Positions 4,098 through 6,049 of a stretch of DNA of 64,000 nt are shown one piece after another; positions within the stretch are counted from its first letter, which is position 1; each line of letters opens with the position of its first letter. A program made the position numbers and the translations under genes. Source of the DNA: Desulfosudis oleivorans Hxd3 (GTDB lineage: Bacteria > Desulfobacterota > Desulfobacteria > Desulfobacterales > Desulfosudaceae); NCBI RefSeq assembly GCF_000018405.1, contig NC_009943.1, positions 1,863,001 through 1,927,000 of the forward strand. The letters run 5' to 3'. Below the pieces are notes generated by a model that saw nothing but the letters and a program-made list of their open reading frames with translations, did not search any database and had not been told where the DNA came from.

Positions 4098-5585
4098 TTA
4101 ATGGGTGTGTTGTCTGCCGGCCAGTTCCAGGGCTTTCTGAATGGCCCTGGCCTTGTTCACGGTTTCAACGCGCTCCTTTTCCGGGTCCGAGTCGGCCACG
4201 ATGCCGGCTCCGGCCCGCACCGTGAGACAATCGTCTTCAATGCAGGCCGTGCGGATGGTGATGGCCAGATCCATGTTGCCGCTGAAGGAGATATATCCCA
4301 CGGCTCCGCCATACGGTCCCCGGGGACCCTTTTCAAGCTCATCGATGATCTGCATGGCCCGGATTTTGGGCGCGCCGGAAAGGGTGCCGGCCGGAAAGGT
4401 GGCGGCCAGCAGGTCCCACGCGTCAAGGTCCCGTTCAAGGTCGCAGCGTACGTTTGAGACCAGGTGCATCACATGAGAGTAGCGCTCCACCACCATCAGG
4501 TCGGTGACCTGTACCGTGCCGGTGACCGCCACCCGGCCCAGGTCGTTTCTGCCCAGGTCCACCAGCATCAGGTGCTCGGCCCTTTCTTTTTCGTCCTTCA
4601 GCATTTCATCGGCCAGTGCCCGGTCCTCCTGTTCGGTCCTTCCCCGGGGCCGGGTGCCGGCAATGGGCCGCACCGTAGCGATGCGGTTTTCAAGCCGCAC
4701 CATGGTTTCCGGCGATGACCCCACCAGGGCCGTTTCCCCGATGTGCAGAAAGAAAAGGTATGGCGACGGGTTGATGTACCGCTGGGCCCGGTAAAGGGTC
4801 CAGAGATCCGGGGCCGGGCAGCAGGAAAAGGGCTGGGACAGCACCGCCTGAATGATTTCACCCTGGCGGATATAGTCCTTGGTGACCCCGACCATTGTTC
4901 TGTAATCCTCATCTGTTCTTTCAGGGGCCAGCACACAGGGGGCTGCGGCTGAGTTGCCGGCCTCCACGGGCAGGGGCGCCTGCACCACGGCAAGCAGTTT
5001 TTCAACCCGCTTTTCCGCCGCCTCGTAAGCCGCGTCAATGCTTTTTGCTGATCGGGTAAAGGCAATGGCCAGGGCTACCAGCGTGTGGCGGATGTTGTCA
5101 AAGATGATCAGCTCGTCCGGAATCATGAAAGCGGCAATGGGCCGGTCTTCGGGGAGCCGGTTGGGAATCTTTTCAAAAAATGAGACCATTTCGTAGGTAA
5201 AATACCCCACCAGCCCGCCCCAGAACCGGGGCAGGCCAGGCATCTCGGCCGGCGTGTAGTCGGCCATGATGTTTCGCAGGATTTGCAGGGGCAAGCCGTT
5301 GTGTCGAATCCGCTGCACCGTGCCGTTGTCCAAAATCTCCACGTGGTCCCGGAACAGTTTTACATGGGCCTTTGCCGATGCCCCCAGAAAGCTGTACCGG
5401 CCCCACCGCTCGCCGCCTTCCGCGCTTTCAAACAGGAAAATCGGCCCTTTTCCGGTGTAGAGCTTTTTCAAGATAGAGACCGGAGTCTCGGTATCCGCCA
5501 GAATCTCGGCGCACACGGGAATGGTGTTGGCGGTCTGCGCCATCTCACGAAATGCCGTTTTGTCCGGAAACTGTTGAAGGATCAT
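4098..5585 (-). CDS. trpE: Anthranilate synthase component I
   Basis: TrpE converts chorismate plus ammonia to anthranilate. The 495-residue protein has the N-terminal feedback domain (FLFESAEGGERWGRYSFLG; the LLES-type Trp-binding segment reads LFESAE) and the chorismate-binding domain. The latter shows IAGTRPRGRTEQED, ERAEHLMLVDLGRNDLGRV, FPAGTLSGAPKIRAM and GPYGGAVGYISF. The start ATG at 5585 has AAGGA 6 bases upstream. It is the first structural gene of the operon, downstream of the trpL leader and two terminators, and its Trp-binding segment suggests it is also feedback-inhibited. Confidence 0.97.
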   Translation of the reverse strand: MILQQFPDKTAFREMAQTANTIPVCAEILADTETPVSILKKLYTGKGPIFLFESAEGGERWGRYSFLGASAKAHVKLFRDHVEILDNGTVQRIRHNGLPLQILRNIMADYTPAEMPGLPRFWGGLVGYFTYEMVSFFEKIPNRLPEDRPIAAFMIPDELIIFDNIRHTLVALAIAFTRSAKSIDAAYEAAEKRVEKLLAVVQAPLPVEAGNSAAAPCVLAPERTDEDYRTMVGVTKDYIRQGEIIQAVLSQPFSCCPAPDLWTLYRAQRYINPSPYLFFLHIGETALVGSSPETMVRLENRIATVRPIAGTRPRGRTEQEDRALADEMLKDEKERAEHLMLVDLGRNDLGRVAVTGTVQVTDLMVVERYSHVMHLVSNVRCDLERDLDAWDLLAATFPAGTLSGAPKIRAMQIIDELEKGPRGPYGGAVGYISFSGNMDLAITIRTACIEDDCLTVRAGAGIVADSDPEKERVETVNKARAIQKALELAGRQHTH

Positions 5586-5616: not shown

Positions 5617-5651
5617 AAAAAAAGGCCGCATGCTCTTTTGAGCCTGCGGCC
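5617..5651 (-). terminator. Second (proximal) terminator of the trp leader
   Basis: Read on the minus strand, GGCCGCA at 5651-5645 pairs with TGCGGCC at 5630-5624, and GCTC (5643-5640) with GAGC (5635-5632) around an AAAA loop. The stem is followed by seven T and is a strong intrinsic terminator 32 bases before the trpE start. Its 5' arm CCGCAGGC (5649-5642) is exactly complementary to GCCTGCGG (5683-5676), the 3' arm of the upstream terminator. The two terminators are therefore potentially linked through a mutually exclusive pairing. Confidence 0.8.
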
Positions 5652-5668
5652 TTTTTTATTTTAAAAAC

Positions 5669-5704
5669 AAAAAAACCGCAGGCGTTCTTTTTGGTCGCCT
5701 ACGG
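5669..5704 (-). terminator. Trp attenuator terminator (regions 3:4)
   Basis: CCGTAGGCG at 5704-5696 pairs with CGCCTGCGG at 5684-5676 over nine positions (one G-U), with an A-rich loop, followed by seven T. Region 2, CGCCCACGG at 5746-5738, overlaps the end of the leader peptide and is complementary to region 3 with one mismatch, giving the antiterminator. GTGGG inside the Trp codons (5767-5763) pairs with CCCAC (5744-5740) as the 1:2 hairpin. This is the classical attenuation arrangement, read directly from the sequence. Confidence 0.85.
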
Positions 5705-5730
5705 TTTGGTTTACGCTATGTCTGACAGTA

Positions 5731-5823
5731 TCAAGCGCCGTGGGCGGACCGAACGGACCAGACCCACCACCACCAGTTACCCTGGTTTGCCTTGACGAAA
5801 GTTGACACTGTCTTGGATTCCAT
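5731..5823 (-). CDS. trpL: trp operon leader peptide
   Basis: This short frame of 30 codons on the minus strand is too small for usual gene finders. It reads MESKTVSTFVKANQGN, then WWWWVW, then SVRSAHGA and a stop. Four consecutive TGG codons lie at 5775-5764 and a fifth at 5760-5758. Ribosome stalling at these codons when charged tRNA-Trp is scarce would uncover region 2 and allow the 2:3 antiterminator. It lies about 35 bases downstream of the predicted transcription start and ends 27 bases before the first attenuator stem. The ribosome-binding site is weak (GAAAG). Confidence 0.88.
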   Translation of the reverse strand: MESKTVSTFVKANQGNWWWWVWSVRSAHGA

Positions 5824-5863: not shown

Positions 5864-5891
5864 ATTATGGTATGTATAAGCCGCTTGTCAA
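5864..5891 (-). promoter_or_regulatory. Predicted sigma-70 promoter of the trp operon
   Basis: On the minus strand TTGACA (5891-5886) is followed after 16 bases by CATAAT (5869-5864), a near-consensus pair. Transcription would begin near 5857 and run through trpL. No obvious TrpR operator palindrome was recognised over it, so attenuation may be the main control. It abuts the end of a 138-bp palindromic repeat at 5912-6049. Confidence 0.72.
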
Positions 5892-5911
5892 GCGAAAAAA
5901 CATTGACGGCT

Positions 5912-6049
5912 TCGTAAAAAGTCCAATTTCTGCGTTGCGCTGCATCCCTCGTCACTGCGGCGTACGACAAGTACGCCTCATTCCTCGGGCTTTGCGACGC
6001 CTTGAACTTGAACTTTTTACTTTGCCGTTTTGTTTCGGACTTTTTACGA
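5912..6049. repeat. 138-bp palindromic (MITE-like) repeat
   Basis: Perfect 13-bp terminal inverted repeats, TCGTAAAAAGTCC at 5912-5924 and GGACTTTTTACGA at 6037-6049, enclose a GC-richer centre. The centre folds on itself: GGCGTAC (5959-5965), GACAA loop, GTACGCC (5971-5977), extended imperfectly by CCTCGTCA/TTCCTCGG. There is no coding frame for a transposase. The structure is that of a non-autonomous inserted element or large intergenic palindrome. It sits between the divergent trp promoter and cinA, so cinA transcription must start inside or after it, or read through it. Confidence 0.75.

Follow-up and report, generated by a model that had tools for sequence, protein, structure and literature searches.

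A putative six-segment relay attenuator with two serial terminators upstream of trpE in Desulfosudis oleivorans, and leaders of the same layout in its phylum

We analyzed a 64,000-nucleotide stretch of the Desulfosudis oleivorans Hxd3 genome (referred to here as the window, whose numbering is used throughout) and identified, on the minus strand in front of trpE, a leader that is probably a ribosome-mediated relay attenuator. It consists of six segments that can pair either as 1:2-3:4-5:6 or as 2:3-4:5, the first series including two intrinsic terminators (T1 and T2) and the second two antiterminators. Sequence analysis establishes the segments and the two terminators in tandem and shows that the 4:5 pairing is conserved, covaries, and is energetically feasible; there are no transcript or read-through data. 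Such relay leaders are apparently an undescribed class of regulatory RNA in the aromatic amino acid operons of sulfate-reducing bacteria.

Table 1 Coordinates of the trp leader and its surroundings in the window
Feature	Positions	Strand	Basis
Putative sigma-70 promoter of the trp leader transcript	5864..5891	-	TTGACA, 16 nt, CATAAT; 11 of 12 consensus matches, consensus only
trpL leader peptide ORF, MESKTVSTFVKANQGNWWWWVWSVRSAHGA then stop	5731..5823	-	Sequence reading; Trp-rich leader ORFs in ~150 relatives
Region 1, 5' arm of the 1:2 protector hairpin, over the last Trp codons	5754..5767	-	Fold, -14.8 kcal/mol
Region 2, GGTCCGCCCACGG, partner of 1 or 3	5738..5750	-	2:3 hairpin, -18.0 kcal/mol
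Region 3, ACCGTAGGCGACC, partner of 2 or 4	5693..5705	-	Folds
Region 4, CGCCTGCGGT, T1 3' arm and 5' arm of the 4:5 hairpin	5675..5684	-	Folds; covariation
Terminator 1 (T1), 3:4 hairpin and U-tract	5669..5705	-	-16.7 to -18.5 kcal/mol
4:5 hairpin, proposed second antiterminator, 15 bp, 42 nt	5642..5683	-	-22.1 kcal/mol; covarying in relatives
Region 5, GGCCGCAGGCTC, partner of 4 or 6	5640..5651	-	Folds; covariation
Region 6, GAGCATGCGGCC, T2 3' arm	5624..5635	-	Fold
Terminator 2 (T2), 5:6 hairpin and U-tract	5617..5651	-	-20.5 kcal/mol; -26.6 kcal/mol when flanking A-U pairs are counted
trpE, promoter-proximal gene of the controlled operon	4098..5585	-	Pfam Anth_synt_I_N and Chorismate_bind

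A preliminary description of this DNA had placed here a trpL peptide containing WWWWVW, regions 1 to 4, and a second terminator behind the first, and every coordinate checked out on the minus strand (Table 1). The five Trp codons, which fall within six codons, occupy 5775-5764 and 5760-5758 (minus strand). T1 reads ACCGTAGGCGACC...CGCCTGCGGT followed by seven T's, and T2, located 32 nt upstream of trpE, reads GGCCGCAGGCTC AAAA GAGCATGCGGCC followed by seven T's. In D. oleivorans, the leader ORF sits inside an 11-bp stem (5812-5802 with 5734-5724). Downstream of trpE, the operon continues with trpG, trpD, trpC, and trpF to position 807 (Pfam). The locus thus has the elements that define an attenuator, i.e., a leader ORF rich in Trp codons, mutually exclusive 1:2, 2:3, and 3:4 pairings arranged such that a stall would free region 2, and an intrinsic terminator upstream of trpE, of which there are two. 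On its upstream side, the promoter is adjoined by a palindromic dispersed repeat (5883-6000, minus strand) that is present in approximately 40 copies of ~98 bp in the Desulfosudis genome (89 to 98% identity) and resembles a MITE or REP-like element; a similar-looking element lies near trpE in one relative (L022).

The same description had noted that the 3' arm of T1, GCCTGCGG (5683-5676), is the exact reverse complement of the 5' arm of T2, CCGCAGGC (5649-5642), and this was confirmed. The pairing extends past the 8-nt core by two U.G and five A-U pairs, formed between the U-tract of T1 and the A-tract preceding T2. The resulting hairpin was more stable than all of 200 shuffled sequences (z, -5.2). 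As a genomic control, we searched 464 kb of the same genome with a loose detector that also admits intragenic hairpins; of 70 other adjacent pairs of hairpins with U-tracts, only 1 formed a 4:5 duplex that reached -17.5 kcal/mol.

For comparison, trpE-anchored searches yielded approximately 150 distinct upstream regions in which a Trp-rich ORF is a candidate leader. Leaders were chosen by trpE and terminator shape only, and the 4:5 pairing played no part in their selection. Tandem terminators were present in approximately 120 of the 150 distinct trp leaders of the order Desulfobacterales, while the remainder mostly had one terminator; several of the regions without two terminators are not true leaders. 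Typical arms (alignment A1) are CCGTGGGCAG for region 3, GCCCACGGTC for region 4, GGCCGTGGAA for region 5, and TTTCACGGCC for region 6. The start of T2 follows the T1 stem after a median of 14 nt, and the two U-tracts are of equal quality (6.77 and 6.79 U in 8 for T1 and T2, respectively). Given that a Trp leader was not found at the five Geobacteraceae and Desulfuromonadaceae trpE loci examined and that a Fibrobacter leader (L052) has a single terminator, the layout is not universal. T2 has seemingly been lost entirely in two leaders (L249 and L255, family f36) from close kin of double-terminator species, which could serve as natural controls. In another leader upstream of trpE (L121), the 3' arm and U-tract of T2 are duplicated (CACGGCCTTTTTTCACGGCCTTTTTTT), and a third termination site is possible.

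Absence of covariation at 4:5 in related species had been named in advance as an outcome that would refute the chained pairing. Covariation was present, both in alignments and on a TrpE tree. In an alignment of 33 leaders (most families contributing one or two), the 12 pairs of 4:5 were formed in 95.9% of cells (0 of 500 shuffles), and seven of them had changed on both sides, amounting to 24 such cells; the terminator stems were paired in 93.0 and 93.4% of cells, and the control pairing 3:6 in 77.5%. We then turned to 98 leaders, aligned with a covariance model in which 3:4 and 5:6 were the only pairings. Here, 4:5 was paired in 98.8% of cells, compared with 96.4% for 3:4 and 97.0% for 5:6. 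Swapping whole arms among leaders lowered 4:5 to 95.5% (standard deviation, 0.39), with none of 1,000 swaps reaching the native value, while 3:6 did not differ between native (78.9%) and swapped (78.3%) arms (143 of 1,000).

On a tree of 47 TrpE proteins built with FastTree, 4:5 underwent 9 compensatory double changes and 4 breaks, and another 52 changes affected one side only and left the pairing intact; with permuted arms, breaks numbered 16.6 on average and 11 at minimum. The corresponding breaks of 3:6 were 28, versus 31.3 when permuted. Mean duplex energy in 120 leaders was -13.0 kcal/mol for 4:5 and -9.5 kcal/mol for 3:6, the former being the stronger in 101 leaders. When each family was represented by one leader, pairing was better with native than with swapped 4:5 partners (z, -5.1). 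The same comparison made within families was weak, and its outcome varied with how the arms were cut: variable arms gave 15 better and 6 worse (P = 0.006), and two sets of fixed windows gave 13 better and 10 worse (P = 0.09) and 12 better and 12 worse (P = 0.08). We conclude that the 4:5 pairing as such is well supported by these comparisons.

The stem motif itself has changed in some lineages. In Desulfobacteraceae with Desulfobacter/Desulfobacula-type loci (family f36), GGCTGC stands in place of CCGTGG, and region 4 (GCAGCCTTTT) matches region 5 (AAAAGGCTGC) perfectly (L045, L246, L247, and L252). The 4:5 pairing there consists of GCAGCC:GGCTGC and U:A pairs, and the stem of T2 itself carries a bulge. 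One leader (L024) has undergone a coordinated change to CCGCGATCC:GGATCGCGG, and three others (L004, L016, and L019) have TCACGG:CCGTGA at 4:5, with G.U pairs or a mismatch in their 3:4 stem.

We propose the following mechanism. With plentiful Trp-tRNA or an untranslated leader, 3:4 (i.e., T1) would form, and polymerases leaking through T1 would run into T2, region 5 being available to region 6. With a ribosome stalled on the Trp codons, 2:3 would pair and leave region 4 single-stranded; region 5, as it emerges, would be captured by region 4 ahead of the synthesis of region 6, so that T2 would be too late to fold. A single stall would be passed on in this manner through both terminators. Given that leaks multiply, the arrangement would probably keep basal expression low and still allow induction. 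We infer that the nascent RNA forms 4:5, that this pairing reduces termination at T2, and that the gain is a lower basal level; the response of expression to charged tRNA is likewise an inference.

Predicted folds are compatible with much of this sequence of events. For a ribosome at Trp 17, 20, or 22 with its footprint masked, 2:3 preceded the synthesis of region 4 (P, 0.79 to 1.0). Equilibrium would afterwards favor 3:4, which has to be outpaced in classical attenuators as well. The preliminary description had held that formation of 2:3 frees region 4 to pair with region 5, and with the leader held at the Trp codons and region 5 transcribed, the minimum-energy structure indeed combined 2:3 and 4:5 (P45 = 1.0). 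After region 6 was also out, and provided that region 2 kept hold of region 3, the balance between 4:5 and 5:6 was nearly even (P45, 0.36; P56, 0.64); 4:5, as the first to form, would therefore only have to last through the polymerase's crossing of the U-tract. For a ribosome at the stop codon or no ribosome, the end state was 3:4 with 5:6 (P near 1 once region 6 was out). However, while region 5 was out and region 6 was not, 4:5 could invade 3:4 (P45, 0.84 for a ribosome on the stop codon and 0.37 without a ribosome), and thus the stalled and unstalled states may not separate cleanly. At full equilibrium, 3:4 with 5:6 was more stable than 2:3 with 4:5, which implies that both antiterminators must work kinetically, like those of classical attenuators; no kinetic folding was performed. 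Over 120 leaders, the mean energies were -16.5 kcal/mol for 2:3 versus -18.7 kcal/mol for 3:4 (duplex versus hairpin) and -15.7 kcal/mol for 4:5 versus -19.6 kcal/mol for 5:6 (hairpin versus hairpin). In these models, the same design is found twice, i.e., a slightly weaker antiterminator, predicted to form earlier, is set against each terminator.

The arms of T1 and T2 are alike in most families (CCGTGGGC and GGCCGTGG), and swapped arms pair at 95.5% anyway, as they might if T2 were a plain fail-safe copy of T1 and 4:5 a functionless trace of duplication and of the shared CCGTGG stem motif. We consider this unlikely. Duplication alone predicts as much complementarity for 3:6 as for 4:5, whereas 3:6 was far weaker and did not covary; on this control, we rejected duplication by itself as a sufficient account. 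Furthermore, 4:5 is kept better than the stems that compete with it and tracks region 4 when the motif changes. By inference, a T2 of such strength, unregulated and immediately in front of trpE, would halt most transcription, and a functionless 4:5 would leave the operon blocked without relief.

Two other readings accept a role in T2 control for pairing with region 5. If any polymerase that passes T1 also passes T2, 4:5 would be a real antiterminator of T2 acting as a commitment step, and T2 would add little repression and would chiefly clear paused or misfolded complexes. The transient predominance of 4:5 over 3:4 without stalling, while region 5 is out and region 6 is not (P45 of 0.84 or 0.37, as given above), speaks for this reading, which we nevertheless regard as quite improbable: 3:4 with 5:6 reached P near 1 in the unstalled states after region 6 was out, and the full U-tract and strong stem of T2 are kept across the order, which suggests termination by T2. 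It is also conceivable, although we give this very little credence, that the partner of region 5 is region 2 instead of region 4, which would put T2 under the direct control of region 2, given that a CCACGG-like motif is present in region 2 of many leaders. The 2:5 duplexes were weaker (-9.9 kcal/mol, versus -13.0 kcal/mol for 4:5, which was stronger in 99 of 120 leaders), and region 2 is occupied by region 3 in the stalled state. The relay through 4:5 remains the reading that we prefer.

Leaders of this kind were also found in front of genes other than trpE. We built a covariance model (R1) of T1 and T2 and did not count some matches on the opposite strand that were the same palindromic hairpins read backwards. 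As judged by matches to this model (E ≤ 1e-5) in 53 of 118 genomes of the phylum, the layout is phylum-wide and not confined to trp. Sites across the phylum were located upstream of trpE, trpB-like genes, DAHP and ADH synthase genes, an aminotransferase gene, leuA, and ilvB. The genomes that supplied the trp leaders contained further strong copies upstream of non-trpE genes: 2-amino-3,7-dideoxyheptulosonate (ADH) synthase with Phe/Tyr/Trp leaders (e.g., L273, MNNFSGNYFGFYWYFYNTGLPEVR), two types of DAHP synthase with Trp or Phe/Tyr leaders, and trpD with Trp leaders. The same tandem terminators also occur behind Phe-rich leader peptides upstream of paaK, encoding phenylacetate-CoA ligase (L277, L329, L332, L352, and others), which suggests Phe-responsive control of this aryl-CoA ligase. 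Leader peptides at non-trpE sites mostly match the controlled gene; leuA and ilvB had no clear leader peptide. A match upstream of a chorismate mutase/prephenate dehydratase-like gene had a single terminator.

In 73 non-trpE leaders, 4:5 was paired in 92.9% of cells versus 88.6% after swapping (0 of 1,000 swaps). Because the model consensus helped to find its members, this set carries less independent weight than the trpE-anchored one. With somewhat less confidence than for the trp leader itself, we think it likely that these are relay attenuators distributed across the phylum, in which one stall would open two serial intrinsic terminators, in which peptides have been exchanged (Trp, Phe/Tyr, and probably branched-chain), and which have been selected for multiplied repression with induction kept.

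Several individual loci are of note in their own right. The Desulfosudis genome carries, near 2363021, an ADH synthase (aroA') leader (L289, 1501-1550, minus strand) with a Phe/Tyr/Trp peptide and an intact T1. Its T2 has lost the U-tract, while an 8-bp 4:5 match (CCCGCGG with CCCGCGGG) is retained; this leader is a natural case of T2 decay. Behind Ile/Leu/Val-rich candidate leaders with a single strong terminator (ACCGTTATCAG..CTGATAACGGT), we found three genes (L348, L356, and L357) that we take, from their N-termini, to be ilvD-like; one such copy is in the Desulfosudis genome near C1:2467286. Relay leaders also occur back to back in divergent orientation, between DAHP synthase and trpD genes (L278, 1501-1997) and between DAHP synthase and trpE genes (L285, 1376-1899).

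Textbook attenuation of the trp operon involves one terminator. The classical trp attenuator (Yanofsky type, RF00513) shares with the Desulfosudis leader the Trp-codon peptide, the 1:2, 2:3, and 3:4 alternatives, and ribosome stalling as the signal; the Desulfosudis leader adds a second terminator and 4:5. A conserved version with two terminators, linked by a pairing that is kept better than the terminator stems, would be an RNA-only route to a wider dynamic range of attenuation. It would also make it possible to ask directly whether one kinetic decision in folding is handed on to the next, and it would provide a modular design for synthetic switches.

No Rfam family reached its gathering cutoff in the window. 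RF00513 (Trp_leader) scored 14.0 bits at 5666-5778 (cutoff, 41), and RF04312 (trpB ncRNA motif) scored 34.7 bits on T1 and T2 (cutoff, 59), with none of 116 phylum genomes above the latter cutoff. The RF04312 consensus has no U-tract after its first hairpin, whereas T1 of the relay has one. We discounted the weak matches to RF04312, RF00506, and sRNA families as two-hairpin look-alikes. A published description of the chained two-terminator layout was not found in a search of open-access literature, outside which most subscription papers lie, and the novelty of the layout is provisional. By analogy, the ermK leader of Bacillus licheniformis is possibly the closest forerunner, with one drug-stalled ribosome reportedly releasing two leader terminators there; that leader serves a resistance gene of a Firmicute and depends on antibiotic-dependent stalling, in contrast to the amino acid relay leaders.

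Other leaders with two attenuators or terminators differ in how these are connected. The Salmonella mgtCBR leader contains two attenuators that respond to two independent signals through two ORFs, and its stems are not intrinsic terminators (PMC3641672); the relay leader has one peptide and two intrinsic terminators joined by pairing. We rejected separate sensors of the mgtCBR type for the relay leaders, in which there is a sole leader ORF and the median 14 nt from the T1 stem to T2 leaves no room for a second. In Desulfovibrio, from a related phylum, thiSGHFE is preceded by tandem THI elements with two serial terminators, each under its own riboswitch (PMC545781), and the chained pairing is absent there. 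The rimP leader of Gammaproteobacteria has a second tandem terminator and a possible antiterminator (PMC2965389), while a leader peptide chain is not described for it. The two attenuators of the mefA/msrD operon have been called a double lock that avoids basal expression (PMC10314930); they have separate leader peptides and different target genes, unlike the two terminators of the relay, which would answer to a single leader peptide in front of one operon.
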